A DNA stretch of 46,912 nt from positions 1-46,912 of the IMG/VR virus record IMGVR_UViG_3300049830_000163, one strand, 5' to 3'. Of the stretch, positions 5,847 through 46,912 are shown piece after piece; the first letter of the stretch is position 1; each line of letters opens with the position of its first letter. The stretch comes from a virus. A program made the translations under genes and the position numbers. The notes below the pieces were generated by a model, which was given only the letters and a program-made list of their open reading frames with translations, was not told the DNA's origin and searched no databases.

Positions 5847-6504
5847 AGCCCCCGCCCCGGCTCCAGTGGAACTCCCGCCTTCGGGGGCTACATCCCCCGC
5901 GCCAGCTGCTGAAGGCGTAGCCCCAGAAACCCCCGCGCTGCCTGGCGCGGACTCCCTCCTCGCGACCGCGCAGGCCGAGGATGCTCCGGAAGGTGGCGCG
6001 GAAACCGCGGCCGCGCCGGTGGCGTATACAGAATTCGCACTACCCGAAGGTGTAGCTGTCGAGCCCGAACTCATGACCGCGTTCCAGGAGCAGGCCAAAG
6101 CAAATGGCCTTTCCCAGGAAGCCGCTCAGGGTATGCTCGACCTCTACGGCAAGACGGTACAAACCCAGGTGGAAGCTGCCGCAAAGCATCTCGCTGAACA
6201 GCAAACCCAAACCTGGACTGAGGTGAATAAAGCCTGGCTCGCCGAGCTTGAGGCCGTCCCGGATTTCCAGGGCGACACCAAGAAAACCTCTCTCGCCATT
6301 ATGGCGAAGGCACTCGAAGAGTACGGCGTGGGCGATGTGCGGCAGGCGTTCGCGCTTACCGGTGCGGGCAACAACCCCGCGATTGTCCAGACTTTCCTCA
6401 AGATGGCGAAGGCGCTTTCCGAAGGGACTCCAGTCTCTTCCGGTGCTCCCATCTCCGGACCACGAACAACGGGCGCCGTTCTCTACGGCGAACCCTCAAC
6501 TTAA
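5815..6504 (+). CDS. Capsid scaffolding protein
   Basis: This 229-aa protein lies just before the major capsid gene. The first 70 residues are Pro/Ala/Glu-rich and low complexity. A predicted helical core follows (residues about 85-165, 'QEQAKANGLSQEAAQGMLDLYGKTVQTQ'), then a small C-terminal domain ending in 'GAVLYGEPST'. This disordered-helical-short tail plan is typical of T7 gp9-type scaffolds. It would guide prohead assembly and leave before packaging. No protease motif was seen. Confidence 0.8.
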   Translation: MSEALTPPLAEAPAPAPVELPPSGATSPAPAAEGVAPETPALPGADSLLATAQAEDAPEGGAETAAAPVAYTEFALPEGVAVEPELMTAFQEQAKANGLSQEAAQGMLDLYGKTVQTQVEAAAKHLAEQQTQTWTEVNKAWLAELEAVPDFQGDTKKTSLAIMAKALEEYGVGDVRQAFALTGAGNNPAIVQTFLKMAKALSEGTPVSSGAPISGPRTTGAVLYGEPST

Positions 6505-6513
6505 GGAACCACT

Positions 6514-7563
6514 ATGGCTACGCTATCTGCAACTGCAATGACTTACGCGGAGTGGACTCTTCGCCACGACCGCTACGGCAAGCCCGCTACGCTTGTCAAC
6601 ATGATGTCTCAGGCCAACGGCGTCATCGATGATATGATGGCCGTCGAGTGCCAATCCGGCAACGCGTTCGAGTACACCCAGGTTGTCGGCCTGCCAACCC
6701 CGTCGCGCCGCGTCTACAATCAAGGCGTCAAGCGCACTATTGCGCAGGTCGCCAAGCTAACCGCGACGACCAAGGAGTACGCTGACCAGATCGTTATGGA
6801 TCGGGACATCGTAGACATCAACGGCTCGGGAATGCAAGTTCGCGCTGACGAAGATATGATCCACATGCAGGCTCTGCAGCAGAAGCTTGCCTCGGACATC
6901 TTCTACGGCAACGCGAACGTGGACCCCGCGCAGTTCACTGGCCTCGCTAACATCTACAACACCGTCAATCTCGCCACTAGCGGCATCGCCAAGAACGTGA
7001 TTGACTGCGGTGGCACCGGTTCTGTGAATACCTCTCTCTGGTTGGTGAACTGGGGACCGAAGCAAATCCACACGATCTTCCCGAAGGGCACTCAAGCCGG
7101 CATCTTCCACCAAGATTTCGGCCTGGTTCCCAACGGCGGCAGTGATGCCAACGGTAACACCTTCCCGGCCTACATGACCTGGATCAGCTGGAAGATCGGC
7201 CTGGCCATCCACGACTGGCGCCAAGCGGTTCGGGCCTGCAACATCGATGTCCCCGGTCTCGTCGCCGGAACGGGCACGAACCTCATCCACCTCCTCGGTG
7301 ACATGGTTCACAAACTCCCGGTCCAGCCTGTTGGCGCCGGCCCGGTCAATATGTCTGATGCGGTCCCCGAGAAGATCGTTATCAACCGGCCGGTCTTCTA
7401 CTGTGACCGTACTGTTCTCCACTACCTCGACCGCCAAGCTTCGGACAAAACCAACGTCCTGCTTCGCATGGAGGAGTGGGGCGGCATGCCGGTTCTCACC
7501 TATCGCAGCATTCCCATCCGTTGTGTCGACGCGCTGCTCGACACCGAAGCTCGTGTCCTCTAA
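6514..7563 (+). CDS. Major capsid protein
   Basis: This 349-aa protein has the composition and order of BPP-1-type HK97-fold capsid proteins. It has an N-terminal arm, then 'VVGLPTPSRRVYNQGVKRT' and 'VMDRDIVDINGSGMQVRADED' (E-loop/P-domain region), then 'QQKLASDIFYGNANVDPAQFTGL' and a late 'MEEWGGMPVLTYRSIPIRCVDALL'. The start ATG has AAGGAA 7 nt upstream. It is downstream of the scaffold gene and upstream of a Bbp16-like gene, the standard order. Expected to be the most abundant virion protein. Confidence 0.93.
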   Translation: MATLSATAMTYAEWTLRHDRYGKPATLVNMMSQANGVIDDMMAVECQSGNAFEYTQVVGLPTPSRRVYNQGVKRTIAQVAKLTATTKEYADQIVMDRDIVDINGSGMQVRADEDMIHMQALQQKLASDIFYGNANVDPAQFTGLANIYNTVNLATSGIAKNVIDCGGTGSVNTSLWLVNWGPKQIHTIFPKGTQAGIFHQDFGLVPNGGSDANGNTFPAYMTWISWKIGLAIHDWRQAVRACNIDVPGLVAGTGTNLIHLLGDMVHKLPVQPVGAGPVNMSDAVPEKIVINRPVFYCDRTVLHYLDRQASDKTNVLLRMEEWGGMPVLTYRSIPIRCVDALLDTEARVL

Positions 7564-31928: not shown

Positions 31929-33447
31929 GACCGCTGTAATCCTTCATCCCATCTGGGTTTTTACCAGAGTTCTTCTTATCGTACTTGCCCCAATTCCAAC
32001 CGACGGCTACATCGTGCGGGACGATGAGAGAGCGGTTGTTCATCAGGGGTAACTCGACCTTGATAGTTTCCAGGATCTGGGGGATGAGTTCGTCTTCGCG
32101 GCGTTCGTCGTACTGGATTAAGATTGCGTCATGAACAGGGATGAGGATTTCGACCGAAGGCAGGCGGGCGCGCCAAAGCTGGAGGAGGCCGGTCTGGTTA
32201 AGGAAGGCCTCGATGTCTTGGGGCTCGTAAGCCGCTGCGGCCTTTACGGTTTCTTCCTCGAAGCGTCGTCCGAAGAAATGTCTACGGCGTCCAGTAGCTG
32301 TAGTAATGAAGCCGTCCTTCGCGAGCTTAGCACGTAGCCACTTGTGCCAGCGTTCAATAGCAGGGAAACCAGAGAAGTAACTGAGCTGAAACTGCTGGAT
32401 GAGGGACATTGGGATGCGAGTTTGCTTAGAAAGTTCTCGAGGGCTTCCCAGGAAATTAGTACCGTGACCGAGTTTCTTTGATCCTTGACGGTAAGAATCC
32501 ACTCGGTAGAACGGGGCGTCCGCAAGCGCGCGGTTATGCTTATACCACTCAGGGTTCGTGAGAGCTTCAATACCTGTACCATGCCAGTCCATATCCTTCC
32601 AAGTGAGCATACAGACGCCGGTGTGTAGATCGCCGGACTCGCAGAAGTCGAGGTAGGTTCCGTCAGAAAAGAGGTTCCAGCAGATGGCACCGACGGCGCG
32701 GGACTGAACCTGGGCGAGGTCTATGTAGGCGAACTTCTTTCCGGGATCAGCTACGAAGATACGTCGAAGTTCTTCAGTGATATTCTGTAGGTTTGTTCCT
32801 GATCCGAAGCTTGAAGAGTAAGATGAAAGGCGTCCGGTGTCTGTTCCAGCAATATTGTAACTGGTCCGCATTCGACCATCGCGGTCAATGCCTGTAGCAA
32901 GGACGCCGAGTTTTTTATTAAAGTCGCGGATGGAGAGAATGTGCTCCACGATGGGCTGTACCAGGAAATGGGTTCGGAGTTTTTCGAGAGTACCCCGGTC
33001 CACAGTAACTGCGCCGCGTTTGCGGATTGGTTTAATGCCACATCTGACATAGAAGAAGTCCTTCAGTCGGTGAGGGGAATTCCAGATATGCTTCTCGACA
33101 AGGGCGCCCCGCTCACGGATAGTCCACGTGACTTCCTCGGGCGAAAGGCCGACGCCTTCGGTAAGGATTTCTCGAAGGCCGGTCTCGACATGGGTGCGTT
33201 GTTCAAGGAGTTCCGCACCCACTTCCGCGATCAGGGATCGATCGACGAGGATGCCTCGGCATTCCATCTCGAGGATGGGGCCTTGGAGGGCGAGGGCGCG
33301 TTGGTAGATTGGGCGGGTGACAGCGTCCAGCTGCGGCTCGATAGCCTCGAGGACTTCGAGAGTTATCATACAGTCAAGGCCGTTGTAGAACCATAGGCCC
33401 TCAGTGAGGGAGGGTGGGGTTCCGAGGGAGGTCTGGAAGACTTTCAT
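31864..33447 (-). CDS. Family A DNA polymerase, polymerase part
   Basis: This 527-aa protein starts at an ATG directly after the TAG of the upstream exonuclease gene and in the same frame. The first 30 residues carry the ExoIII motif (YNGLD, 21-25) of a 3'-5' exonuclease whose ExoI and ExoII lie in the previous frame. Polymerase motif A is DLAQVQSR (243-250), where the usual E is Q. Motif B is RQGSKKLGHG (320-329), with H where Pol I has F/Y. Motif C is VHDA (438-441), not VHDE. The two catalytic aspartates D243 and D440 are present. It is the replicative polymerase. Confidence 0.9.
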   Translation of the reverse strand: MKVFQTSLGTPPSLTEGLWFYNGLDCMITLEVLEAIEPQLDAVTRPIYQRALALQGPILEMECRGILVDRSLIAEVGAELLEQRTHVETGLREILTEGVGLSPEEVTWTIRERGALVEKHIWNSPHRLKDFFYVRCGIKPIRKRGAVTVDRGTLEKLRTHFLVQPIVEHILSIRDFNKKLGVLATGIDRDGRMRTSYNIAGTDTGRLSSYSSSFGSGTNLQNITEELRRIFVADPGKKFAYIDLAQVQSRAVGAICWNLFSDGTYLDFCESGDLHTGVCMLTWKDMDWHGTGIEALTNPEWYKHNRALADAPFYRVDSYRQGSKKLGHGTNFLGSPRELSKQTRIPMSLIQQFQLSYFSGFPAIERWHKWLRAKLAKDGFITTATGRRRHFFGRRFEEETVKAAAAYEPQDIEAFLNQTGLLQLWRARLPSVEILIPVHDAILIQYDERREDELIPQILETIKVELPLMNNRSLIVPHDVAVGWNWGKYDKKNSGKNPDGMKDYSGHDERKRSKRVAPMDRKFRPVD

Positions 33448-35853: not shown

Positions 35854-36309
35854 CTACGCCTTCGCGACGGACTTGATCTCAGTCGCGATTTCCGGCTGGC
35901 CGTCACGGACGAACGGGCGGTGGCCCAACTCGAACACGACCTGCTTGCCTGGGGACTCGGAGGCAATTTGGCTGAACGTGGCGCCCTTGCCGGCCTCGAT
36001 GCCAAGCACTTCAGTCAGGAAGAGCTTAGCGTTGTAGAGGCCCTCGGGCGTATCGATCCAGTAGTCTCGGCGGAACGGTGGCCAGGTGGCGAGTTCACCA
36101 TGCTCGGCGAGGTTGTCCTGGTCCACATCTTCCTGCGCCGCGATGGGCTTAATCATGAAACGCAGAATGGACCGATCGCCGTCCTTCGTTCCCTGGACGA
36201 CCTGCTGAGGGAGACCGGCGACGACACCGAGGTAATGGCCAGTCGGCCGGGGTTTCGGCTTTTCAATGTCGTCGACTGCTTGGTTCAGGATATCTTCAAA
36301 AGAAGCCAT
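35854..36309 (-). CDS. Hypothetical replication/recombination-module protein
   Basis: This 151-aa protein has AAGGAAAACC before its ATG. It starts with a helix ('ASFEDILNQAVDDIEKP') and then a beta-rich core ('PTGHYLGVVAGLPQQV', 'RSILRFMIKPIAA'). It resembles in style the small DUF669-like proteins that accompany Sak4-type ATPases and bind single-stranded DNA. A single-strand-binding role is an inference from context (ATPase upstream, nuclease further upstream). Confidence 0.7.
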   Translation of the reverse strand: MASFEDILNQAVDDIEKPKPRPTGHYLGVVAGLPQQVVQGTKDGDRSILRFMIKPIAAQEDVDQDNLAEHGELATWPPFRRDYWIDTPEGLYNAKLFLTEVLGIEAGKGATFSQIASESPGKQVVFELGHRPFVRDGQPEIATEIKSVAKA

Positions 36310-36335: not shown

Positions 36336-37160
36336 TTATTCGCGGACGGCTTTGAAGAAGTCTGCGAGCCCCGTTTCGAGGGGCAGTCGATCAACTTCCT
36401 TACGGAAGGAGATGGGGTTTTTCAGATCAACAATCCCTGTGGAGTTGGTCCGAATAATACGGTTGCCTGCATTGCCGGTGGACTCGACCATCAGCACGCA
36501 GTTGAAGTAGGCGGCGATCTGATCATTCAGAGCGGAGCCGATAGAGCGGGGGAAGCCCTTGGTGATCTCGAACTGGTTCTTGTCGTAGTTGATATGGGCG
36601 AGGACAAGCACGTTGGTCTGGAAGGAGGCGGAACAGAGGAGCTGGATGAGTTGCATCAGCATCTGCTGGGCCGCGAAGTAGTAGGACTGAGGCTCTTTTG
36701 CGCCGGGGTTCATGGCCTGGACGTAGCGGAACGCGGCCGCGGCTGCAGTGGTGAGGGTGTCGATGACGAGGACGGTGTCCTGGCCCCAATCCTGCGGCTT
36801 GCCGAGGTCCTCCTCGCCCTCCTTCCAGTGGTTGAGCTGCTTCATCGCGCGCGCGAAGGCGTTGGGCGTGCCATCTACGAAGGGCATGACCTTCATCGCG
36901 TTCCCGATCATCATCATCGGCGTGTCCAGGCCTTTCATCTTGTCGGTGAAAGTCTGGAACCGCACGTTGTCGATCTTATCGGGGCACTGGAGGTTGATGT
37001 AGCTGCGAAGAGGGTGCAGCAAATTGTCGAAGTCGTAGACGCGAAGTTTGTAGCCTGCGGCAACGAGGGAGGTTAGCCCGCCCGTCTTACCGCTGCCTGC
37101 GTCACCGAGGAGAAGACCCTTGACGAAGCGAGTTGAGTCGTGTTGGGTGAGGGCGGGCAT
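36336..37160 (-). CDS. RecA-like ATPase (Sak4/AAA_24 type)
   Basis: This 274-aa protein has Walker A GDAGSGKT at 19-26 and Walker B LVIDTL at 131-136, followed by 'LVLAHINYDKNQ' in the sensor position. This is the compact RecA-core plan of phage Sak4-type recombinases. It lies between a Cas4-like nuclease and a possible single-strand-binding protein, consistent with phage recombination or recombination-dependent replication. Its ATG overlaps the stop of the upstream 84-aa gene. Confidence 0.85.
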   Translation of the reverse strand: MPALTQHDSTRFVKGLLLGDAGSGKTGGLTSLVAAGYKLRVYDFDNLLHPLRSYINLQCPDKIDNVRFQTFTDKMKGLDTPMMMIGNAMKVMPFVDGTPNAFARAMKQLNHWKEGEEDLGKPQDWGQDTVLVIDTLTTAAAAAFRYVQAMNPGAKEPQSYYFAAQQMLMQLIQLLCSASFQTNVLVLAHINYDKNQFEITKGFPRSIGSALNDQIAAYFNCVLMVESTGNAGNRIIRTNSTGIVDLKNPISFRKEVDRLPLETGLADFFKAVRE

Positions 37161-37414
37161 CAGCTCGGCTTTCCTGGGATGAGAAGCTTCGGGGCGAGAG
37201 AGGGCTCCCGCTCGGAGACTTGAACGAGGGATAGAACGGCGAGGACGTTATGGCCGTTGAGGACGAAAGGGAAAGCTCCGCCGGGAAGCTTCATCTCCAC
37301 ACCGTAAGGTCCGGTGAGGATGATGGTTTGTGCGGTTCCCTGCGCGTCGGTGATAACGCGGGCGTTGCACATGAACTCGACGGAATTTGATTGGATGGAG
37401 ACTTCAGTTGTCAT
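37160..37414 (-). CDS. Hypothetical small protein between nuclease and ATPase
   Basis: This 84-aa, beta-rich protein ('SVEFMCNARVITDAQGTAQT', 'YGVEMKLPGGAFPFVLNGHN') starts at ATG 37414 within an ATGA overlap with the nuclease gene. Longer frames upstream overlap that gene and are not real. Its place inside a recombination cassette suggests a partner of the nuclease or ATPase. No family was recognised. Confidence 0.72.
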   Translation of the reverse strand: MTTEVSIQSNSVEFMCNARVITDAQGTAQTIILTGPYGVEMKLPGGAFPFVLNGHNVLAVLSLVQVSEREPSLAPKLLIPGKPS

Positions 37415-38325
37415 CGCGGCACCAGGGGATTCCAGAAGCGCTTCTCGAAGTAGGTCTCGAGGAAGCGTTCCCGCATCTCGGGGTCTTTCTTGCAGATGTC
37501 CTTGAAGACGCAGCCGCCGTAGTTGCCGCAGGACTTCAGGTTCATCGGCCACTGGTTAGCGTCAGCGTAACGCTCGACGTTGCGAAGGTGGAGTTCGGTA
37601 TTGACGAGCCACTCTTCTAGCTGCCCTTTGCTTCGCATGGTGAAGCCGCGGCCAAAAGTGGTCTGGCCGACTAGGATCGAGGCCGCGTCGATGATGACGC
37701 CCGCGAGGGGGAGATTGTAGACGACCTGGCCCGCGAGGGTGTATTGGGACATCTGGTTGTCGAGGTCGTATTGAGAGAAGTAGAAGGCGCCGAGGCCCCC
37801 GCCGGTGGTCTTCTGATCCATGACGAAGAGGTCGCCGGCGTAGTCTACAACGCGGTCGAGGTGGCCGCAGAGGAGGTACTCGGTTCCAAAGGGAGAGGCG
37901 ATACCGGACTCGAACTTGAATGAAAGCTCTGTCGCCGGGCGCCCATTGGCGAGGTGGATGATCTGGGCCGGGTCGTCTTTGTATTCCTCGAAGTACCAGA
38001 TGACGGTGCGGAGGAGGGTATCGCGGTTCTTTTTCGGGGAGTTATCGGGGTTCCACCCGTAGGACTCGCGAAGGACGTGATCCACCGCTACATCGAGAGC
38101 ATCTTCATGGTCTCCGCCTTGGGCGCGGGCGTGGAAATAGGCCTCCATGCTGGACGCGAAGATGGAGCCGAACTTGAGGTGGACAGACTCCTCGGTTTTG
38201 CGCCAACCTTGGATGATGGTGAGCTGGTACTTCCGTGGGCACTCCATAAGAAGGCCGAGGGACGTGGAGTCCCAGGCGGTCTGAAGCTGCGTGTCAGGGA
38301 AATAGAGGGAGGGAGCTTCGCTCAT
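37411..38325 (-). CDS. Cas4/AddB-like PD-(D/E)XK exonuclease with Fe-S cysteines
   Basis: This 304-aa protein has the RecB-family nuclease motifs GHLDRV (D157), MDQKTT (D170-Q-K172) and a QMSQY motif (191-195). A cysteine at C29 (LMECPRKYQ) together with C266, C272 and C278 near the C-terminus forms the four-cysteine pattern of 4Fe-4S Cas4/AddB-type nucleases. It probably resects DNA ends to feed the Sak4-like ATPase two genes on. Start and stop both overlap neighbours by four bases. Confidence 0.86.
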   Translation of the reverse strand: MSEAPSLYFPDTQLQTAWDSTSLGLLMECPRKYQLTIIQGWRKTEESVHLKFGSIFASSMEAYFHARAQGGDHEDALDVAVDHVLRESYGWNPDNSPKKNRDTLLRTVIWYFEEYKDDPAQIIHLANGRPATELSFKFESGIASPFGTEYLLCGHLDRVVDYAGDLFVMDQKTTGGGLGAFYFSQYDLDNQMSQYTLAGQVVYNLPLAGVIIDAASILVGQTTFGRGFTMRSKGQLEEWLVNTELHLRNVERYADANQWPMNLKSCGNYGGCVFKDICKKDPEMRERFLETYFEKRFWNPLVPR

Positions 38326-38531
38326 AGCTTCAGTTCCCCGAGGTCGAGCGAGAGGCCAGAAGCTGCGGCCTTCGCAGTCTTGGGAGCTTTGGCGCTGGCG
38401 CCCGTTGCGAAGAACATATGGCGGCGCGAACGGTAGTACTCGATTATTGGCGCGCGCATCTCTCGAGTAAGGGAAAGCGGGTCAGCCTCCATCAACTCGG
38501 CCAAAGTGTTGTCTAGGGGTTCACTCATCAC
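38322..38531 (-). CDS. Small protein with LDLGELKL C-terminal tail
   Basis: This 69-aa protein (ATG 38531; ATG 38528 also fits) has a helical N-terminal half ('LTREMRAPIIEYYRSRRHMF'), an Ala/Lys linker, and the terminal peptide SLDLGELKL. Near-identical tails end the 40011 and 45012 genes. The layout of small domain, flexible linker and conserved terminal peptide suggests a docking motif for a shared partner. It is ATGA-coupled to the nuclease gene. Function is unknown. Confidence 0.72.
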   Translation of the reverse strand: MMSEPLDNTLAELMEADPLSLTREMRAPIIEYYRSRRHMFFATGASAKAPKTAKAAASGLSLDLGELKL

Positions 38532-38736
38532 CCAGCTCCAATTCTAAATGTTTGACTAATCCAGTTTCTTCCGAGGTACGCTTGTTACGCAGGGCGTGTA
38601 CGTGGGCGCGGACGAGGGCTCGAATGGCTGGCCCCGCGCCCGCGAGGGAGTAGACTTCTTTGATGTACTCATAATCCTCTCGGTGAAGATTGAGTTTTAC
38701 GCGAACGGGGTCGAGCAAGATGCGCTTGCGGCCCAT
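38521..38736 (-). CDS. Ribbon-helix-helix-like DNA-binding protein
   Basis: This 71-aa protein has a short strand ('RVKLNLHREDYEYIKEV') followed by two helices ('AGPAIRALVRAHVHALRN'), as in CopG/Arc-type ribbon-helix-helix regulators. It ends LELELGDE, partly like the tail motif of its neighbour. It is a candidate early-gene regulator; possible operators include the direct repeats at 46370-46395. Assignment is by pattern and moderate. Confidence 0.6.
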   Translation of the reverse strand: MGRKRILLDPVRVKLNLHREDYEYIKEVYSLAGAGPAIRALVRAHVHALRNKRTSEETGLVKHLELELGDE

Positions 38737-38954
38737 TAAACTGCCTCACGTTTGACGAGCCAAATCTCATCGGACTCGGTTGGGGGGAAGACGATAGAAA
38801 TCTTAGCGAGGTCTGGGTTCAGTTCCTCGCTGCGGGATTTGTAGAGTTGTTGTTGGAATTGCTCGCGCGTGCAGCCGGAGACGCGGAGGCGAATGCCGCG
38901 TTCGGAGCGCAAGGCGGAGTACCAGTACTCAAGAAGAGTTGGTGATGTGGGCAA
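38736..38954 (-). CDS. Hypothetical small early protein
   Basis: This 72-aa protein begins at a TTG (38954) with GGAG 10 nt upstream, directly after two hairpins. Content is mixed helix and strand ('CTREQFQQQLYKSRSEEL', 'LAKISIVFPPTESDEIWLV'). No family was recognised. Its stop overlaps the next start by one base. The hairpins upstream suggest that it opens the transcript or survives readthrough from the 190-aa gene. Confidence 0.6.
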   Translation of the reverse strand: MPTSPTLLEYWYSALRSERGIRLRVSGCTREQFQQQLYKSRSEELNPDLAKISIVFPPTESDEIWLVKREAV

Positions 38955-38970
38955 GAGCGGGAAGCTCCGA

Positions 38971-39009
38971 GTTGGGGGACGTTCAACGGGTTACTGAACG
39001 TCCCCCAAC
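38971..39009 (-). terminator. Perfect 15-bp hairpin, second of a tandem pair
   Basis: The stem GTTGGGGGACGTTCA (38971-38985) pairs without mismatch with 38995-39009 across a 9-base loop. On the minus strand it follows the 190-aa gene and a first hairpin. No T-tract lies behind it, so it may limit readthrough or protect the 3' end of the upstream mRNA instead of stopping polymerase completely. Confidence 0.6.
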
Positions 39010-39011
39010 TT

Positions 39012-39042
39012 GGAGCGGAGCCGTGGGGAGTGGCTCCGCTCC
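39012..39042 (-). terminator. Perfect 11-bp hairpin directly after the 190-aa gene
   Basis: GGAGCGGAGCC (39012-39022) pairs perfectly with GGCTCCGCTCC (39032-39042) across a 9-base loop. It lies nine bases beyond the stop codon and two bases before the second hairpin. Confidence 0.6.
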
Positions 39043-39050
39043 GAAAGGCG

Positions 39051-39623
39051 TTAGGCGGGCTCGGCAGCCTTCGCCTTCTTCGCCTTGGGCGCCTCGGCCG
39101 GCGCTTCGCCTTCACCGACTTGCAGGGAGTCAATCTGCAGTCCGGAGAGACCTTGGGAAGCCTCGACGCGCTGGCGGGCCAGGGCCATGACGGCCTCGGA
39201 CGCGGCGTTGCCCAGGGCGAGCAGGCGCTTGGCCTCGCCGGAGATCTGGGCGGTCGTGTAGTCCTTCAGTTTCTTGCCGCCGCGCTGGATGGCGATGCGG
39301 ACTTGCTCCTTCATGATGGACATGGCCTCGGAAGCGACCGGGTCCGAAGAGCGAGCGCCGGCGGTGCGGACACCGAACTCGTACTCGGCGGCGTAGTCAT
39401 CGAACTGCGACTGCAGCATGTCTGCGTCGAATGTGCCTGCCTCGTCCGCTTCCTTCACGCGCTTGGCGAAGTTGTTGCGGAGGTTTTCGGCGAAGGTTTG
39501 GTTCAGCGAGGAAGCTTCGTTCGCGGTGAGGACGTGGCCCTCGGTGTACGGGGCAGGGACGGTGAAGGTTTTGCCGGCGATGGTGATCTCGCTGCGCGTG
39601 GTCTCGGGGGTGATGTCGGGCAC
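39051..39623 (-). CDS. Insulated early phage protein (190 aa)
   Basis: This protein begins at GTG 39623 with a perfect AGGAGG five bases upstream and a strong promoter at 39672-39700. It is followed by two hairpins, which marks it as a separately and strongly expressed gene. The sequence has 'GKTFTVPAPYTEGHVLTANEASSLNQTFAENLRNNFAKR' (strand then helix), a helical core and an Ala/Lys/Glu/Pro-rich tail (KAKKAKAAEPA). Similar proteins occur in other GC-rich phages as hypotheticals. A DNA-binding or host-takeover role is possible but not shown. Confidence 0.78.
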   Translation of the reverse strand: MPDITPETTRSEITIAGKTFTVPAPYTEGHVLTANEASSLNQTFAENLRNNFAKRVKEADEAGTFDADMLQSQFDDYAAEYEFGVRTAGARSSDPVASEAMSIMKEQVRIAIQRGGKKLKDYTTAQISGEAKRLLALGNAASEAVMALARQRVEASQGLSGLQIDSLQVGEGEAPAEAPKAKKAKAAEPA

Positions 39624-39671
39624 AAGGGCCTCCTGGGGGTTGCGGACGCGCCCGGTGCGGGCGACGGGTTG

Positions 39672-39700
39672 ACGATATGGGAGGAAGGTGAGGTTGTCAA
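39672..39700 (-). promoter_or_regulatory. Strong sigma70-like promoter for the 190-aa gene
   Basis: On the minus strand a perfect TTGACA (39695-39700), a 17-base spacer and TATCGT (39672-39677, four of six consensus bases) lie about 50 bases before the GTG. It is the best promoter in the window. Confidence 0.72.
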
Positions 39701-39718
39701 GTGGGGAATTGAGGTATC

Positions 39719-39753
39719 GGGGGGCCGGGTATTACGATGATACGAGGCCCCCC
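39719..39753. repeat. GGGGGGCC hairpin of the control-region family
   Basis: GGGGGGCC (39719-39726) pairs with GGCCCCCC (39746-39753). Inside it GTAT (39729-39732) pairs with ATAC (39740-39743) around a 7-base loop. Its form and flanking bases resemble elements at 787-820 and 664-702. It lies seven bases beyond the stop of the 84-aa gene and just upstream of the 190-aa promoter. It may be a terminator or a protein-binding site. Confidence 0.65.
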
Positions 39754-39759
39754 AATCGA

Positions 39760-40014
39760 CTAGAACGGCATTTCATCTTCCCGCGCCGCATCGGAGAGGG
39801 GGAGAGAGGAAAGATCTTCCTCGACGGGGGCGTGGGATAATTGTTTAATGGCGTGCTGGGCGAAGGCAAGAAGGTCTTGCGCGGACTCGAGGTCCCAGAT
39901 GGAGATGGTAACGCCGGCGACCGCGCCCATGACGAAATTGTCGTGACTGCGTGTCTCGTAAATGTAGATTTTATCCGGGGCTTTCAGGCCGCAGGATATG
40001 CTGGAGTAGCTCAT
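39760..40014 (-). CDS. Small protein with SSB-like acidic C-terminal tip
   Basis: This 84-aa protein has a beta-rich N-terminal part ('KIYIYETRSHDNFVMGAVAG'), a helix ('ESAQDLLAFAQHAIKQLS'), an acidic linker and the terminus AREDEMPF. This closely mimics the DDDIPF tip with which bacterial SSB recruits repair and replication enzymes. It could recruit or distract SSB-interacting host proteins. Its ATG overlaps the previous stop in CTATGA. It is not long enough to be a full SSB with an OB fold. Confidence 0.72.
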   Translation of the reverse strand: MSYSSISCGLKAPDKIYIYETRSHDNFVMGAVAGVTISIWDLESAQDLLAFAQHAIKQLSHAPVEEDLSSLPLSDAAREDEMPF

Positions 40015-40295
40015 AGTGAAAGTTCTCCTAAATCAAGGTTCAGCGTGGGAATGTAGGTCTCCGGAGTATCCCGCTCTTTTATCCGGAGTCTAAGATCGCG
40101 CAAGGCATGCTGGCAGGCGGCGGAGATCGTACCCGCGCAGCCCGCACCGTAGAGGAGTCGCGGGCGCTTGCCGCGAACCCATTCCTGGAGCGTCACCCCC
40201 CAGACGCGGAATTCATCTTGGTTCATGTGAGAGATGCGGACGCCCTGGTCGATGAGCCAGGCATCTAACTCTGCGAAGGTCCAGTCTTGCGTCAT
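40011..40295 (-). CDS. Small protein with LDLGELSL C-terminal tail
   Basis: This 94-aa protein starts 'MTQDWTFAELDAWLIDQGVRIS', has a small mixed domain with 'YGAGCAGTISAACQHALRDLRLR', then a short linker ('KERDTPETYIPT') and the terminal NLDLGELSL. The tail matches the 38322 and 45012 proteins although the domains do not. GGAG within the tail codons serves as ribosome site for the next gene. Function is unknown. Confidence 0.73.
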   Translation of the reverse strand: MTQDWTFAELDAWLIDQGVRISHMNQDEFRVWGVTLQEWVRGKRPRLLYGAGCAGTISAACQHALRDLRLRIKERDTPETYIPTLNLDLGELSL

Positions 40296-40582
40296 AGTTC
40301 AACAACCGTGAGAGGGGACTGCCGAAGGATGCGCACGCCGGGGCCGTCGGCCCGGATATCCAGTGTATCCCAGGAGGAAGTTCCTCGGCGCGGGTCTTCG
40401 ATCTCGTAGATCTCCAAGGAGGCCTTGCGGTCTAGCGTCCGTAAGGTGTTGAAGCGCTGCGCGAGGTAGATGGCTTTGCCCGAGGTAGCGGTTCGGATGA
40501 GAAGTCCATTCTCAGACTCGAGGGCTTGGTCGAGATACTTACGGATGTCTTCGTAAGCCTCGAGGTTCTTAGGCATCGGCAC
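40292..40582 (-). CDS. Hypothetical early protein
   Basis: This protein of 96 aa (GTG 40582; ATG 40576 is an alternative) begins inside the end of the helicase gene. A helix ('YEDIRKYLDQALESENGLLI') is followed by strands ('KASLEIYEIEDPRRG', 'GVRILRQSPLTVVEL'). No family was recognised. The coupling to the helicase gene suggests shared early expression. Confidence 0.68.
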   Translation of the reverse strand: MPMPKNLEAYEDIRKYLDQALESENGLLIRTATSGKAIYLAQRFNTLRTLDRKASLEIYEIEDPRRGTSSWDTLDIRADGPGVRILRQSPLTVVEL

Positions 40583-42065
40583 GGAAGGCCTCGCTTTCTA
40601 CAAGGTAAAGGGTGTCCTGGGCGCGGGTTTCGATGACGTAACGGACGTTGTACTCTTGCTCCAGCTTCGTCGGGTCGCCCGTTGTAGCCGCGCGGAGGGC
40701 GTATTTGCTGGGGATGAGTTGTGGGTCCAGGTGGAAGACGACGGGGAACTCGAGTCCTTTAGCCTTGTGTCCCGTCATGAGTTTGACGGAGCCCGTGGCC
40801 TCGAAGAGGTGGGTTGCGAAAGCGATGGAGGCGCCGAGGGTCGTGCCCGCGTCAGCGAAGACGCGGAGGCAGTCGGCTTTGTCGTGTATCGGCGTATGGC
40901 GGGCCTCGCGGGCTTTGCTGAGTTCCTTATTCTCCCATTCGGAAATGCAGGATAGGACGGAGACGTGTGGGAGGTCGTCTTTGCCGAACTTGCGGAGAAT
41001 TGTAATTAGGCTTTTCCCAATATCTCCTTTAGAGATTTCAACTCCTCTTCCCGCACGAATGAGCCGGAGAGCAATCGAAAAAAGAGGCGCGTTACTGCGG
41101 CAGATAATGGCGGCATCCGCCGGGATGACCGATACTCCCCATTCTTCCAGTGCTTCAACCTTACCTGGTCTGGCCCAATCTGGATATGCCATGTGTGGCG
41201 CACGCCAGCGTGCTCGCTCGACAACCGATATAGGACATCTGAAGCTAACATTGAGTGGGTACTCCTTCATTGAGAATTCCTCCTTGAGGAGGGACATTGA
41301 GGATGAGTGTGCTCCGCGGAAACCGTAGATGGCTTGGAAGGGATCGCCTACGACGACGAGGCGCCCGCCGTACATGCGGCGGATCATCTCGTGATTCATG
41401 GGGGAGAGGTCTTGAGCTTCGTCGACTAGGATGATGGGGAAGGTTGGGAACGGGGCGGAGAAGCAGACGGACATATAGATCTGGTCATCGAAGTCGATGA
41501 CGCCCTCGAAGGCGGACGTGATGGAGATGGAGAGGATTTCGTCAAGGAGTTCAGCGAATTCGGGTGTGGGCTCGACATCGAGGTCGGCCGCGATGGCGTC
41601 GAGGAAGGGCTCGCGCTCGGTGAGGGTGGAACCGAAGGCGCGGCCGTACTGGGGTACGTAGCCGTTTGACTTCGCGAGGCGGGCAGCGCGGAGAAGGGAG
41701 GAGAACATTTCGCCGTAGAGTTTCTTTTGCTCGGGCCGCGCTTTTTCGAGGATGGTAGAAAAGATCGTGTAGAGCTTATCCGCTTTGACGGTGAGGCGCT
41801 TGCCGATTTTCTGGCCCCAGGCCGCGTGACCGAGGGCGTTCATGGTTTTGCAGGTGATGTGGGCGGGCATCCGCTTAGTCATCTCGTCCGCGATCTTTTT
41901 GTTGAAAGCGCAGCAGAGGGTGGGGACGAGGGGAAGCTTCTGGGCGAAGAGGGTGAGAGTGGAGGTTTTGGCGGCGCCGGCGAGGGCGGACCAGATGGAG
42001 TTCTCTGGGATTCTGGCGGAGGCGATGATGGCGTTCTGCTCAGGGGTTAGAATGAATTCGGGCAT
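40569..42065 (-). CDS. SF1 (UvrD/Rep-like) DNA helicase
   Basis: This 498-aa protein has helicase motif I GAAKTS (30-35), motif II LVDEAQD (213-219), motif III GDPFQAIYGFRG (240-251), motif V TGHKAKGLEF (about 428-437) and motif VI 'YVIETRAQDTLYLV' (about 475-488). It is compact, with short inserted 1B/2B domains, as is usual for phage SF1A helicases. No replicative DnaB-type helicase was found, so it may serve replication as well as recombination. It overlaps both neighbours. Confidence 0.9.
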   Translation of the reverse strand: MPEFILTPEQNAIIASARIPENSIWSALAGAAKTSTLTLFAQKLPLVPTLCCAFNKKIADEMTKRMPAHITCKTMNALGHAAWGQKIGKRLTVKADKLYTIFSTILEKARPEQKKLYGEMFSSLLRAARLAKSNGYVPQYGRAFGSTLTEREPFLDAIAADLDVEPTPEFAELLDEILSISITSAFEGVIDFDDQIYMSVCFSAPFPTFPIILVDEAQDLSPMNHEMIRRMYGGRLVVVGDPFQAIYGFRGAHSSSMSLLKEEFSMKEYPLNVSFRCPISVVERARWRAPHMAYPDWARPGKVEALEEWGVSVIPADAAIICRSNAPLFSIALRLIRAGRGVEISKGDIGKSLITILRKFGKDDLPHVSVLSCISEWENKELSKAREARHTPIHDKADCLRVFADAGTTLGASIAFATHLFEATGSVKLMTGHKAKGLEFPVVFHLDPQLIPSKYALRAATTGDPTKLEQEYNVRYVIETRAQDTLYLVESEAFRADA

Positions 42066-42247
42066 TTAATTTTCCTTTTGCGGGGCGGGCGAAGGTCGAG
42101 GATTTGATAGACATGGCGACGAATTACACCTGCGACTGCGGATTTAGTTGTGCCGAAGTGGACTGCTGCTTCGGAGTAAGTGTAGCCGGTGCTGAGGTAG
42201 GTGGTAAGGGTGAGGACGCGAGGTGGGGTCCAGAAGTTTCGTTTCAC
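42047..42247 (-). CDS. Small helix-turn-helix protein (GcrA-like)
   Basis: This 66-aa protein contains 'FWTPPRVLTLTTYLSTGYTYSEAAVHFGTTKSAVAGVIRRH', here read as helix, turn and recognition helix. It recalls the N-terminal HTH of GcrA-type cell-cycle regulators of alphaproteobacteria, followed by a basic tail. It may regulate early transcription or interact with host sigma factor-dependent promoters. Overlaps both neighbours by short stretches. Confidence 0.62.
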   Translation of the reverse strand: MKRNFWTPPRVLTLTTYLSTGYTYSEAAVHFGTTKSAVAGVIRRHVYQILDLRPPRKRKIKCPNSF

Positions 42248-42684
42248 TTTGCCTCCGTCTCTGGTTGATCCCTGGTCGCGGCGTCATAGGCTGCGAGGGT
42301 GGTGGAGAGCGCATCTTCAGCCGAATGCCATTCCTCGCCGGTTCGTCGGGCCATCCAGCTAACGGTGACGTAATCTGTCAACATTCGCCGGGTTTCCCGC
42401 GCCGCCTCCACGACCTTTTCCGCCAGAGCGAGGCGGCGTTCGACAGCTTGATAATTGTCGGCGGCGTTGGAAAGTAGTCGCTCATAGCGGGCGTCCGCCT
42501 CATCCCTCTCTCGCATCACGTCTGTCAGCTTGGCTTGAAGGTCTATGATTGTGGCGAGGACAACCCGTTCGCAATTCAGCGCCAGTTGTCCATCCTCCAT
42601 AGAGGTGTAGACGACCAACCGTTCGAGCGCGGCCCCGAGGTCCATCTCCTTCAACGCTTCCACGTCTATTGGGTTATCGGTCAT
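42244..42684 (-). CDS. Coiled-coil hypothetical protein
   Basis: This 146-aa protein has a long central coiled coil ('IIDLQAKLTDVMRERDEADA' and 'YQAVERRLALAEKVVEAARE'). The acidic N-terminus and short polar tail carry no motif. ATG overlaps the stop of a 34-aa membrane protein (ATGA). Similar coiled-coil early proteins are common in phages, with no assigned role. Confidence 0.7.
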   Translation of the reverse strand: MTDNPIDVEALKEMDLGAALERLVVYTSMEDGQLALNCERVVLATIIDLQAKLTDVMRERDEADARYERLLSNAADNYQAVERRLALAEKVVEAARETRRMLTDYVTVSWMARRTGEEWHSAEDALSTTLAAYDAATRDQPETEAK

Positions 42685-42785
42685 GAAAGAACCCCTGCGT
42701 GCATGAGTACGGAGACCAACAGGCCTCCGAGGAAAGATCCGGCGACAAAGCCGATGAGCATGAAATGTGCGTCACGCGCGGTCAT
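42681..42785 (-). CDS. 34-aa single-span membrane protein
   Basis: This very short gene (MTARDAHFMLIGFVAGSF, then more hydrophobic residues) is held in place by ATGA overlaps at both ends, with GGGGAA before its ATG. About 24 residues form one transmembrane helix containing a GxxxGxxxGG-like packing pattern. Tiny membrane proteins of this kind may act in superinfection exclusion or lysis control; no homologue was recognised. Confidence 0.65.
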   Translation of the reverse strand: MTARDAHFMLIGFVAGSFLGGLLVSVLMHAGVLS

Positions 42786-43006
42786 GCGTCTTTCCCCGCG
42801 AGGCCGCAGTAACCGAGCTTGGGCTCGCCCGGCTTTCGCTTCAGGCGGATCACCAGATCGCCGCCATGGCCTTCTTCGGTTTGGCTAGTCCACGGCTCGT
42901 TCCACCGCCATGCCATGCAGGCAGAGGCGATGCAGGGGCCGTTAAATTTGATCCTCATCTCGCTACCCTTGCAGCAGGTTTTCGTCTTGGCTTCCTCTTC
43001 GGTCAT
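42782..43006 (-). CDS. Cysteine-rich small phage protein
   Basis: This 74-aa protein has cysteines at 11, 12, 25, 30 and 67 in the pattern CC...CIASACMAWRW...GYCGLAGK. Small phage proteins with this C-x4-C-M-A-W-R and YCGL signature recur in many GC-rich phages without an assigned function. The cysteines could hold zinc or an Fe-S cluster. ATG 43006 is chosen over upstream starts because of its four-base overlap with the previous gene. Confidence 0.7.
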   Translation of the reverse strand: MTEEEAKTKTCCKGSEMRIKFNGPCIASACMAWRWNEPWTSQTEEGHGGDLVIRLKRKPGEPKLGYCGLAGKDA

Positions 43007-43335
43007 GGGCGTGGGGTCCAGAAGCGGTGGCCGGGATATCTGCCGTGGCGTCGGTAAAAGAGGATGCAATATTCGTCGTAGCTGATCTGTCGGGCGCGGG
43101 CTTCCCAAGCCTCTTCCTCAGCCTCTTTGCGCTCCTGTTCGTCGCGTTCAGCCTTGGTCGGAACCGTCACGTCCAGTTCCTCGATAATCAGCACCGAGGC
43201 CATGTCGTGCGGATCGGCGCAGCCAATCGAATACCACTTGCCATCCTGAACCCGAATGGGCTCACCTTCGTCTCCGTCACCCACGACGGCGAGATAGAAG
43301 CCGTTTTCGTATTCTTCCTCGCTCATCTCGCTCAT
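43003..43335 (-). CDS. Hypothetical early protein
   Basis: This 110-aa, very acidic protein has a beta part ('FYLAVVGDGDEGEPIRVQDG') and a charged helix ('AERDEQERKEAEEEAWEARA') before 'YCILFYRRHGRYPGHRFW'. Start (ATG 43335, with a second in-frame ATG at 43326) overlaps the previous stop. No family was recognised. Confidence 0.68.
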   Translation of the reverse strand: MSEMSEEEYENGFYLAVVGDGDEGEPIRVQDGKWYSIGCADPHDMASVLIIEELDVTVPTKAERDEQERKEAEEEAWEARARQISYDEYCILFYRRHGRYPGHRFWTPRP

Positions 43336-43640
43336 CCCTCACCTCCCGCGATCAGACGGATGATGGCGGCGGCTTTGGAGAGGGCGATCCGTTCTCTTGA
43401 CCCGATGCGCTGATCCAGCGGTGTTTCTGGCGGCGCGACACCAAATGTCCAGGGATCAATGATCCTCGCCACCGCCTCTCTCATCCCCTCAGGCATGGCG
43501 GGGCGGGCGGCGATCATGGCGCAGTAGACGCGTCGCGCGCGCCCGGCGACACCGCTTCCCGCAAGGCACCGTGCACCTTCTCGAACCATATTCTCACTCG
43601 GATCGGAAGGCGTCAGAACCCATTCAGGTGTCTCGCTCAT
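43332..43640 (-). CDS. Hypothetical early protein
   Basis: This 102-aa helical protein includes 'MPEGMREAVARIIDPWTFG' and 'RIGSRERIALSKAAAIIRLI'. This type of segment ('aRii.p..f......l......ALakA..il..l') is common in small alphaproteobacterial phage proteins of unknown role. It is coupled by four-base overlaps on both sides. Confidence 0.68.
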   Translation of the reverse strand: MSETPEWVLTPSDPSENMVREGARCLAGSGVAGRARRVYCAMIAARPAMPEGMREAVARIIDPWTFGVAPPETPLDQRIGSRERIALSKAAAIIRLIAGGEG

Positions 43641-44164
43641 GACTGTTGCTCCGTGAGTGGTGGGGTCGCGCGGGCCGTCTTCCGTGGCCGTACTGAAGGA
43701 GGGAGCGGAAGTGGCTTTATCGCGAGGACTGCCGAGGGGTCGAGCAAGGACCGCGAGAAGCGATGATCAGCGTCGAACTTGTTCAGCCAATAGCTCGGGT
43801 GTTCGATGATGAACCAAGCTTTCTTGTCGCCATCGGTGTGATAGCTCGCGGTGAACCATTGTTTGCGGCGATAGTTGCGATCTAGCTCTACCTCGCAGTA
43901 AACCAAATAGCGGGCCTCGGGCTTGAGCTTCGGAACGATGATGTCCCGCCACGCAGAGGGCTGGGCTTCTGTATCGTCTCGGCGCGTATTCCCACTCTCC
44001 AGCCCCTTCTCAGCCATCCCGATGAGCCATGCGACTGTGGGCGGGTCAAAGGTGCTGAGAAACGACAGGATTGCGCCGCGTTTGGCATCGGGCAGATCCG
44101 CCTGATCCGCTATTGGTTTCAGGGCTGCAAGGCGTTGGGTGGGGGTCATGAGGGGATCCGTCAT
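43637..44164 (-). CDS. Hypothetical early protein
   Basis: This 175-aa protein has an N-terminal helical part ('TQRLAALKPIADQADLPDAK') and a beta-rich middle with aromatic residues ('YLVYCEVELDRNYRRKQWFT', 'AWFIIEHPSYWLNKFD'), followed by a basic Pro-rich tail. No recognised domain. The start lies just after the stop of a 52-aa membrane protein. Confidence 0.68.
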   Translation of the reverse strand: MTDPLMTPTQRLAALKPIADQADLPDAKRGAILSFLSTFDPPTVAWLIGMAEKGLESGNTRRDDTEAQPSAWRDIIVPKLKPEARYLVYCEVELDRNYRRKQWFTASYHTDGDKKAWFIIEHPSYWLNKFDADHRFSRSLLDPSAVLAIKPLPLPPSVRPRKTARATPPLTEQQS

Positions 44165-44165
44165 C

Positions 44166-44324
44166 TCAGTGCCTCGTCAGCCAGAGGGTGATGAGAAAAA
44201 TCATGTTCGCGAGGAGGGCACATACGACAAGGCCAAGCCAAAACCCGGACGCCGCTTCACTCTCGAACCGCGTAGGTTCCGGCTTCCTGATCTCGTCAGC
44301 CCATCTCTTTTCCTGCGGGGTCAT
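44166..44324 (-). CDS. 52-aa single-span membrane protein, WLTRH tail
   Basis: This short gene lies between two coupled genes. Its ATG overlaps the previous stop (ATGA) and its stop ends two bases before the next ATG. The product has a charged N-terminus (MTPQEKRWADEIRKPEP), one membrane helix ('GFWLGLVVCALLANMIFLIT') and ends LWLTRH. The same ending marks the 49-aa protein at 44866, so the two are probably paralogues or share a membrane-exit motif. Confidence 0.68.
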   Translation of the reverse strand: MTPQEKRWADEIRKPEPTRFESEAASGFWLGLVVCALLANMIFLITLWLTRH

Positions 44325-44869
44325 GCGAACACCTCGATCAAGATGAGTTTTTGTGCCTCAAGTTCGGCGGCCCCGGCGTCCCCGGCGGCTTCCCTGGCGG
44401 CGGCCCTGGCGGCCCTGGCGGCCCAGGCGGCTTCCCAGGCGGCGTCCCTGGCGGCCCAGGCGGTCTTGGCGGCTTCCCTGGCGGCCCAGGCGGCCCAGGC
44501 GGCGTCCTCGGCGGCCAAGGCGGCGGCCTCGGCGGCGGCCTCGGCGGCCCAGGCGGCGGCCCCGGCGGCGTCCCTATTTTCTTCTGACGGATCAGCCAGC
44601 CACGCGGCGGTTGCATCAAGCGCGGCATGGACACGAGGGTCAGGGTTGAGGTGAGAGACGCGCTGGGCGCACAGAAGGGCTAACCGGACGCACAAGTCGT
44701 TGCGCCCCAAACGACTCGCGACCCATAGAATGTCTTCTATCGGGACACCGGCCTTTAATGCCTGTTTGGCGGTCATGGACTTCCGATGCCCGAACAGTTT
44801 CTTGCGGGCGTGGGGATCGCAAGGGTCCAGAGCGAGGAGTTCGGCGAGAGTGATGGACGTAGCGGTCAT
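44321..44869 (-). CDS. Ala/Trp-rich helical repeat protein (Imm-5-like pattern)
   Basis: This 182-aa protein starts at ATG 44869, inside an ATGA overlap. Residues 1-85 form an ordinary helical domain ('LAELLALDPCDPHARKKLFG', 'ALLCAQRVSHLNPDPRVHAA'). Residues about 95-165 are a regular A-A-W-A-A / A-A-R-E-A-A repeat. The combination recalls the putative immunity proteins with A-rich helices (Imm-5 type) found in bacteria and phages. The repeat is coded by a GC-rich tandem DNA pattern. The function could be protein sequestration; this is uncertain. Confidence 0.66.
   Translation of the reverse strand: MTATSITLAELLALDPCDPHARKKLFGHRKSMTAKQALKAGVPIEDILWVASRLGRNDLCVRLALLCAQRVSHLNPDPRVHAALDATAAWLADPSEENRDAAGAAAWAAEAAAEAAALAAEDAAWAAWAAREAAKTAWAARDAAWEAAWAARAARAAAREAAGDAGAAELEAQKLILIEVFA
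44375..44572. repeat. GGCGGCCCA-type tandem repeat DNA
   Basis: About 200 bases consist of imperfect 9- and 12-base units of the GGCGGCCCA/GGCGGCCTC type. They code the Ala/Trp/Arg repeat on the minus strand. The opposite strand reads as a Gly/Pro or Arg/Pro collagen-like frame, which is a by-product. Such repeats change length easily. Confidence 0.75.
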
Positions 44870-45015
44870 GCGAAGTGCCTCGTCAGCCATGCGATTGCGA
44901 GGCCGAACGCGAGGCAGATCGTGGCGAACGCGATGCCGGTCACGAAGGGCAGAACCCAGTCCGCGTTAGCCTCGGCGTTGAACCGCTTGATGCGGTTGGG
45001 GTGGTTGGTGGTCAT
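44866..45015 (-). CDS. 49-aa single-span membrane protein, WLTRH tail
   Basis: ATG 45015 lies in a CTATGA overlap with the stop of the 100-aa gene, and the stop lies in the ATGA of the next. The polar N-terminus (MTTNHPNRIKRFNAEANAD) is followed by one membrane helix ('VLPFVTGIAFATICLAFGLA') and then IAWLTRHFA. It resembles the 52-aa protein at 44166 in size, topology and ending. Role is unknown. Confidence 0.68.
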   Translation of the reverse strand: MTTNHPNRIKRFNAEANADWVLPFVTGIAFATICLAFGLAIAWLTRHFA

Positions 45016-45314
45016 AGCTGCAATGCCCCAAGTTCGAGTTCAATAACAGGCGTTTTGGGCTGGCGCCCGACCTTTCTCACCTGACTTTCGTCGTATTCAT
45101 AGGTGAAGTCTGGTTTGTGCGGTGCCTGTTTGTAGCCGCCCGAGTGAAGTGCGATGGCGCCGCGCTTGAAAAGCGAAAGCGCGTTTTGGAGCCGCCCGGA
45201 GACGGCTCCATTATCGAACTGGATCTTCGCCCCGTTGGGGAGATGGGCGGTGTAGAGGCCGCTCGCGTGGTCGTAGGTGAAGAGGATGGGGAGGGTTTCG
45301 CGAAGGTCAAGCAT
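45012..45314 (-). CDS. Small protein with LELGALQL C-terminal tail
   Basis: This 100-aa protein has a beta-rich domain ('ILFTYDHASGLYTAHLPNGA', 'GAKIQFDNGAVSGRLQNALS'), a basic linker ('RKVGRQPKTP') and the terminal VIELELGALQL. The tail belongs with those at 38322 and 40011. Starts at ATG 45314, eight bases inside the previous gene. Function is unknown. Confidence 0.7.
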   Translation of the reverse strand: MLDLRETLPILFTYDHASGLYTAHLPNGAKIQFDNGAVSGRLQNALSLFKRGAIALHSGGYKQAPHKPDFTYEYDESQVRKVGRQPKTPVIELELGALQL

Positions 45315-46481: not shown

Positions 46482-46912
46482 TTAGATATCGATGACAAGC
46501 TCTCCGATGGTCAACGCCTTCGCGCCTTCCACGTCGATCTTCGCTTGCGCGATGAAGGGGTTGCCTTCGATCTCGAGTTGTTTGACCGCTTCACTACGCC
46601 GAAGGGCAACCGCGCGCTTATCGGAAAGCTTCCAGCCTTGGGCTTGGATCGCCTTGATGAACGCGGGCGCTTTCGCAACCGCATTCCCGGCCAATTCCAG
46701 CGCCCGCGCACGGATCGGATCGCCTTCACGCACGGGGCTCGCGCGAAGCGTTCCCGCGTACATATTGTCGAGCCGCTTTTCCGCCATCGCGCGGGCGTTC
46801 GCCGCGCCGTCTTCTTCCTTCGCCGACGCCATAGCGTCATTGAGTATTTGCCGCAAGCCGTAGTTGTAAATGTACTCCTGCGTGATCGCGGGGAATTTCG
46901 CCACGTTTACGT
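46482..46912 (-). CDS. Early phage protein, 3' part of the gene crossing the junction
   Basis: This is the C-terminal part of the 170-aa protein whose 5' end is at 406. The GTG at 46904 is an internal Val codon and not the start. The visible sequence has 'FPAITQEYIYNYGLRQILND', an acidic/Ala helix, and ends 'ALTIGELVIDI', which loosely recalls the L-x-L-G-E-L-x-L tails of three small early proteins. A strong terminator follows. Compared with the left copy it has one amino-acid change (Val for Ile at codon 29) and three silent changes. Confidence 0.8.
   Translation of the reverse strand, partial: VNVAKFPAITQEYIYNYGLRQILNDAMASAKEEDGAANARAMAEKRLDNMYAGTLRASPVREGDPIRARALELAGNAVAKAPAFIKAIQAQGWKLSDKRAVALRRSEAVKQLEIEGNPFIAQAKIDVEGAKALTIGELVIDI
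46589..46912. repeat. Right copy of terminal direct overlap
   Basis: This repeats bases 1-324 with C in place of T at the four differing positions (46716, 46740, 46887, 46910). Unique genome length is therefore about 46,588 bases. Confidence 0.9.

Follow-up and report, generated by a model that had tools for sequence, protein, structure and literature searches.

A shared C-terminal peptide on unrelated early proteins of a phage group is probably a docking motif

Why do three unrelated genes in one virus record end in nearly the same short peptide? The record (IMG/VR IMGVR_UViG_3300049830_000163) was analyzed over its full 46,912 nucleotides, referred to here as the window, and its minus-strand genes at 38322, 40011 and 45012 carry the tails SLDLGELKL, NLDLGELSL and IELELGALQL, just as a first-pass annotation had described. 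That annotation proposed a docking motif by which small phage proteins reach one common partner. We consider it likely that these tails are a genuine short linear motif for docking, placed at the C-terminus of unrelated early proteins, and that they serve one partner specific to a group of related phages. The tailed and possibly tailed genes of the window are as follows.

38322-38531, minus strand: F1 gene, 69 amino acids, with a helical N-terminal part (LAELMEADPLSLTREMR), a variable Ala/Lys-rich linker and the tail SLDLGELKL
40011-40295, minus strand: 94-amino-acid protein with no family match, tail NLDLGELSL
45012-45314, minus strand: 100-amino-acid protein with no family match, tail IELELGALQL
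46482-46904, minus strand: F5 gene, 140 amino acids, tail ALTIGELVIDI; neither a start codon nor an overlapping gene lies near its stop
38521-38736, minus strand: ribbon-helix-helix-like protein ending LELELGDE, a doubtful member of the tailed set

The gene at 46482-46904 is a fourth tailed gene and a stronger member than the 38521 gene, and its homologues end SLADIGL, LTELGL, IDMDDLGL, IDLEALGL and VDLDAMGF. The LELELGDE end of the 38521 protein reads as first reported, but it is not conserved among the protein's relatives, and this gene appears to be a weak member at best. Homologues of the 40011 and 45012 proteins were not found among the related-phage loci.

The codons of the three tails differ synonymously, as the first-pass annotation had noted (CTC GAC CTC GGG GAA CTG AAG CTA in the 38322 gene, CTT GAT TTA GGA GAA CTT TCA CTA in the 40011 gene and CTC GAA CTT GGG GCA TTG CAG CTA in the 45012 gene). 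To take these codons alone as proof of constraint on the protein was too strong for the window DNA, however. Each of the three tails extends into the ATGA at which the following gene starts, and a Shine-Dalgarno-like GGGGA, AGGAG or GGGG spans their L-G-[EA] codons; the LDLGELKL codons (38325-38348, minus strand) overlap both the ribosome-binding site and the ATG of the exonuclease gene 37411-38325. Because every one of the three lies over the ribosome site of the following gene, the window by itself cannot separate protein-level from ribosome-site constraint, and we turned to related phages, which were found through one further gene of the window.

40569-42065, minus strand: UvrD-like helicase, used as the query

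A scan of IMG/VR with this helicase gave 80 loci and a second scan gave a sister clade, for 92 sequences once duplicates were removed. Named phages included one clear relative, Caulobacter phage Kuura, found via the Sak4 and 39051 proteins; its F1 protein, at 33048-33374, ends LNIDDLFSE and another of its proteins LSIDDLLSTL. A tblastn search for F1 in named phages returned no match, and a host search yielded just two distant contigs of clear relatives from metagenome-assembled genomes, so that the host was not established.

We scored the motif [LIVM]xx[LIM]G[LIMF], at most two residues from the C-terminus, in 1459 conserved early genes. It ended 68 genes belonging to nine families, compared with 0-8 genes at seven shifted positions and 0-2 with permuted motifs. 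When only genes lacking a Shine-Dalgarno sequence and start codon over the tail were counted, the motif was still present in 24 genes of eight families, against 0-1 genes at six of the shifted positions and 8 at the remaining one, which lies farthest in, at 42 residues (a first start-codon filter, which removed 70% of the genes and left no power, was replaced by later filters). The consensus from 79 genes in 46 loci was [LIV][DTSN]Lx[DE]LGL after a variable linker, with mixed synonymous codons, a Leu/Leu/Gly/Leu core and a mean net tail charge of -1.2. A test independent of the motif compared the C-terminal 12-mers of non-homologous gene pairs within one locus with control stretches of the same proteins: 14 pairs scored at least 38, versus 0 and 0 upstream, and 42 scored at least 31, versus 3 and 1, part of the high-scoring pairs being ribosome-site artefacts. 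Chance is excluded as the source of the shared tail at the level of the phage group.

Conservation within families pointed the same way. The F1 family has about 79 members, and the expectation that homologues keep the tail was borne out, since 53 of the 63 in the acidic-tail clade retain a terminal Lxx[LI][GLFMD]. Entropy at the L, L, G and L positions was 0-0.5 bits against about 3 bits in the linker, while the Leu and Gly codons varied freely. In some sister-clade relatives of F1 and F3, LxxLG[LI] is followed by at least 10 further residues.

Single phages often carry two to five copies of the tail on unrelated proteins, and these copies can share a local variant: DDS[IV]TLEDLGL on three genes of locus L073, [TS]LEDLGL on five of L038, VDLxDLGIL on two of L050, and xLHxLGLL on two of L052, together with VDLKDLGLL. 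Locus L039 pairs a LAGLIDADG-type endonuclease ending in REYNTLEELGL with an unrelated protein ending in REYNSLEELGL, and the two tails are encoded by different codons. This end is missing from six named-phage homologues of the endonuclease and from one in L045, although the core is common to all of them.

Outside the group the picture changed. We scanned the DNA of the whole viral collection for LEDLGL-stop and for the permuted LGLEDL-stop; 10 of the 33 stretches with LEDLGL-stop belonged to this phage group, whereas one of the 34 with the permuted form had any core hit. The collection-wide total was not enriched (33 versus 34), and the excess was confined to the share of the group. When the longer DL[GA]DLGL-stop was scanned, three of the four permuted-control hits likewise came from the group, where they were F1 tails with the end DLGLGDL. 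A majority of the newly recovered loci of the group carried at least one tailed gene beyond the one searched for. The enrichment that the first-pass annotation had asked for was thus present within this group and absent across the wider collection, and, judged from these sequences, the tail is not a general phage feature.

These results make the docking motif reading probable, and they bear out that earlier proposal insofar as the tail persists in homologues, occurs in genes without a start codon over it, and has local variants that unrelated proteins of one genome share. As inferred from sequence, the tail may form one helical turn that presents its Leu side chains after a flexible linker, the pattern fitting a helix N-cap box ([DTSN], with [DE] three residues on), a flanking hydrophobic residue and a Gly-Leu C-cap. 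With this tail, small early proteins of unrelated families would dock on one hydrophobic pocket of the group-specific partner and would thereby be brought to the replication-recombination complex of the phage; in tails that reach into the next gene, the codons also supply that gene's ribosome-binding site. The tails would most naturally share one common partner. Because the motif is enriched in this group only, the partner is expected to be common to the group and not usable by every phage, and the lack of enrichment elsewhere argues against a general host protein; we infer a docking function, a single partner and a phage-encoded one. Three genes of the window are candidates.

35854-36309, minus strand: DUF669/PrgE-like OB-fold protein resembling single-stranded DNA-binding protein (SSB), universal and untagged, with no acidic C-terminal tail
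36336-37160, minus strand: Sak4-like AAA_24 ATPase, present in the whole group and untagged, an alternative candidate
37411-38325, minus strand: PD-(D/E)XK exonuclease, universal and untagged, adjoining the F1 gene, an alternative candidate

We ranked the universal, untagged OB-fold protein first, as a tentative choice, because its model is confident (predicted local distance difference test score 94.9), its best PDB match is PrgE (8s4s, E 2e-4), its relatives match DUF669 and the phrog_378 SSB, it has no acidic tail, and its N-terminal segment [NSD][FL]x[DES][IL]L resembles the tails of the putative clients. The Sak4-like ATPase or the Cas4-like exonuclease are the next candidates. It is conceivable, if rather improbable, that early proteins, even a homing endonuclease, join the single-stranded DNA filament of the phage through a C-terminal mimic of the OB protein's N-terminal docking segment; if true, such filament joining would reverse the usual arrangement, in which SSB carries the tail. 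The ParB-like methyltransferase was also considered as partner, because its presence follows that of the acidic tails (49 to 0 between the clades), and was ruled out: two acidic-tail phages do not have it, and the sister clade, which has none, keeps an internal LxxLG[LI]. A shift in the net charge of core proteins between clades was likewise set aside: phylogeny confounds it, and it lost its basis when the basic tails discussed below were rejected.

Several observations weigh against the docking motif. About half of the F1 tails depart from strict LxxLGL, which is found in 33 of 63; 41 of 64 motif genes have a tail that overlaps a ribosome-binding site; the motif-free pair test shows no more than weak enrichment once ribosome-site genes are removed; a within-genome covariation test of the OB N-terminal segment against the tails gave no significant result overall (p = 0.24) and was suggestive in L039 and L052; and the sister clade has -RR[ILV] ends that are mainly translated Shine-Dalgarno sequences, a warning about patterns of this kind. 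The last point bears on the possibility that the tails are themselves translated ribosome-binding sites, the Shine-Dalgarno sequence of the next gene at fixed spacing yielding the same residues on unrelated proteins. All three window tails, and about two-thirds of those in the group, do have a Shine-Dalgarno sequence plus start over them; the same explanation accounts for 38 of 53 sister-clade -RR[ILVFM] tails, whose Arg codons are mostly AGG, and GETQ/GETQ in L055 exemplifies pairs that are plainly artefacts. It does not reach the 24 genes of eight families that have the motif with no such arrangement, nor the 13 of 33 Gly codons of F1 tails that are GGC or GGT, and two of the tail residues, the first Leu and the Asp, are encoded upstream of the Shine-Dalgarno core. 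Furthermore, open reading frames with a ribosome site and start carry the motif in 41 of 1185 cases in the group, compared with one in an unselected set of about 230 from other phages and genomes. Translated ribosome sites thus appear largely refuted for the phage group, and we regard them as an unlikely account of the tails.

We weighed three further explanations. In one, the tail binds the host beta sliding clamp and either recruits phage proteins to host replication or blocks it. The C-terminal peptide is hydrophobic and acidic, the Kuura ends IDDLFSE and IDDLLSTL resemble the second half of QL[SD]LF, and the E. coli Pol IV tail QLVLGL itself ends LGL. Against this, 0 of the 79 tails have Gln at position 1 of the clamp motif, which does not include the conserved [DTSN]L either, and there is no enrichment outside the group, though the host clamp is open to all phages. 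A phage clamp fares no better: the gp45-type family PF02916 was absent from 10 of 10 group records, some of which are possibly incomplete, as was the phage-encoded beta clamp PF02768, and a classical SSB was not found in these ten either. The sliding-clamp pocket offered as a guess in the first-pass annotation is weakened accordingly; a clamp reading is unlikely in general and, for the host clamp, very unlikely. Much the same low probability attaches to a tag for proteolysis or for an adaptor, by which the lifetime of early proteins would be set. Many small early proteins do have hydrophobic residues at the extreme C-terminus, and such a tag would explain the tail on a homing endonuclease, but the tails are unlike LAA-type degrons, the internal LxxLG[LI] of sister-clade F1 and F3 proteins suggests that a free C-terminus is not always needed, and enrichment restricted to the group would demand a phage-encoded adaptor. 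That the tails have no specific partner, and are ordinary acidic amphipathic ends for solubility or capping of small proteins, seems still more remote. Other early families do have loose acidic-hydrophobic ends, such as -EEI or -EEL in the 40292 family, yet neither the near-invariant spacing of L, L, G and L beside a hypervariable linker nor the gain of a local tail variant by a homing endonuclease would be expected of ends that serve solubility.

The sister clade requires separate mention. In loci including L091, L097, L099, L102 and L142, three to five early proteins per phage end -RR[ILVM], mostly at an AGGAGG site, and some of these ends use CGC or CGA codons and have no ribosome site. We considered the basic -RR[ILVFM] tails as a second tag swapped in concert and rejected the idea, as they are mainly translated AGGAGG sites; the Sak4 protein as a client, which these tails had suggested, fell with that explanation. 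In L055 (for example at 6265-7299), L005 and L031, overlapping neighbors share the ends ALGETQ, PDELEG, AQLRRDTL and FETLRS. These shared ends are translated ribosome sites of the next gene, and a trap for C-terminal motif searches.

In the window as a whole, late genes occupy the plus strand from position 1 to about 30.4 kb of the 46.9-kb record, and early genes the minus strand from 46.9 down to 30.7 kb. Beside the OB-fold protein, the Sak4-like ATPase, the PD-(D/E)XK exonuclease and the UvrD-like helicase, we read the early set as including a primase-helicase-like protein, a split PolA with a UDG-like exonuclease part and a ParB-like methyltransferase. The helicase, the polymerase (31864), the UDG-like exonuclease (33448) and the 39051 protein also count among the universal proteins without a tail. 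The minus-strand paralogues 39051-39623 and 46482-46904 belong to a helical family that is widespread in the phage group, with the tail mainly on the 46482 type; a fold search with 39051-39623 gave no PDB match. In the gap before 39051, a 53-base segment (38964-39016) with an 82% inverted self-match is likely a terminator hairpin. The gene at 44321-44890 (minus) encodes a 189-amino-acid protein with a long Ala/Trp/Glu repeat (AAWAAEAAAEAAALAAEDAAWAAW), a G+C-rich coding repeat that is open in several frames, and the genes at 44166-44324 and 44866-45015 (minus) encode small membrane-type proteins ending LWLTRH and AWLTRHFA that are probably paralogues. The C-terminal tip of SSB is of the DDDIPF type, and an 84-amino-acid protein at 39760-40014 (minus) has a similar end, EDEMPF. 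Such ends were seen in 12 coding-strand open reading frames in the window and related loci, compared with two antisense, and in L091, L094 and L102 the small gene of this type adjoins or overlaps the OB protein gene.

Most small early phage proteins have no known function, and a shared tail would assign a set of them to one complex, with the tail peptide as a handle for fishing out the partner. The tailed homing endonuclease suggests that the arrangement is open to mobile genes. Additionally, one short stretch may be readable in two ways at once, as docking peptide and as ribosome-binding site, and the latter easily imitates the former.

The tails may resemble the cargo-loading peptide of encapsulins, a C-terminal [LI]x[IV]G[SD]L that binds the HK97-fold shell. 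Like the bacterial beta-clamp motif QL[SD]LF or QxxLxL, they are a short hydrophobic linear motif on unrelated proteins, but they lack its Gln, and their [DTSN]L and Gly are foreign to it. With the C-terminal tip of SSB, which as NDYPPF in phage HK620 recruits Sak4 (PMC5928155), they would share the use of an acidic-hydrophobic docking peptide in phage recombination; there, however, one SSB tail serves many partners, whereas in this group many proteins are tailed and the SSB-like protein is not, and the group tails differ in sequence and have no terminal PF. PrgE of pCF10, an OB-fold protein that sits as beads on a string on single-stranded DNA with its N-terminal tail docked on the neighboring subunit (PMC11137577), is the closest solved fold to the phage OB protein, a likeness that concerns the candidate partner and not the tail. 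The closest precedent is T4, where gp43, gp33 and gp55 have interchangeable C-termini that bind the clamp gp45 (PMC2988020). The group tails resemble these in that a variable linker leads to an extreme C-terminus that is hydrophobic and acidic, and differ in tail sequence, in their many more and smaller carriers, in the lack of a gp45-type clamp family in the ten phages, and in an untailed DNA polymerase (the window PolA ends KFRPVD, and PolA of L191, L202 and L214 is untagged). If the docking motif is confirmed, these phages, which have no detectable clamp gene, would provide a second and independent example of the T4-type tool belt.

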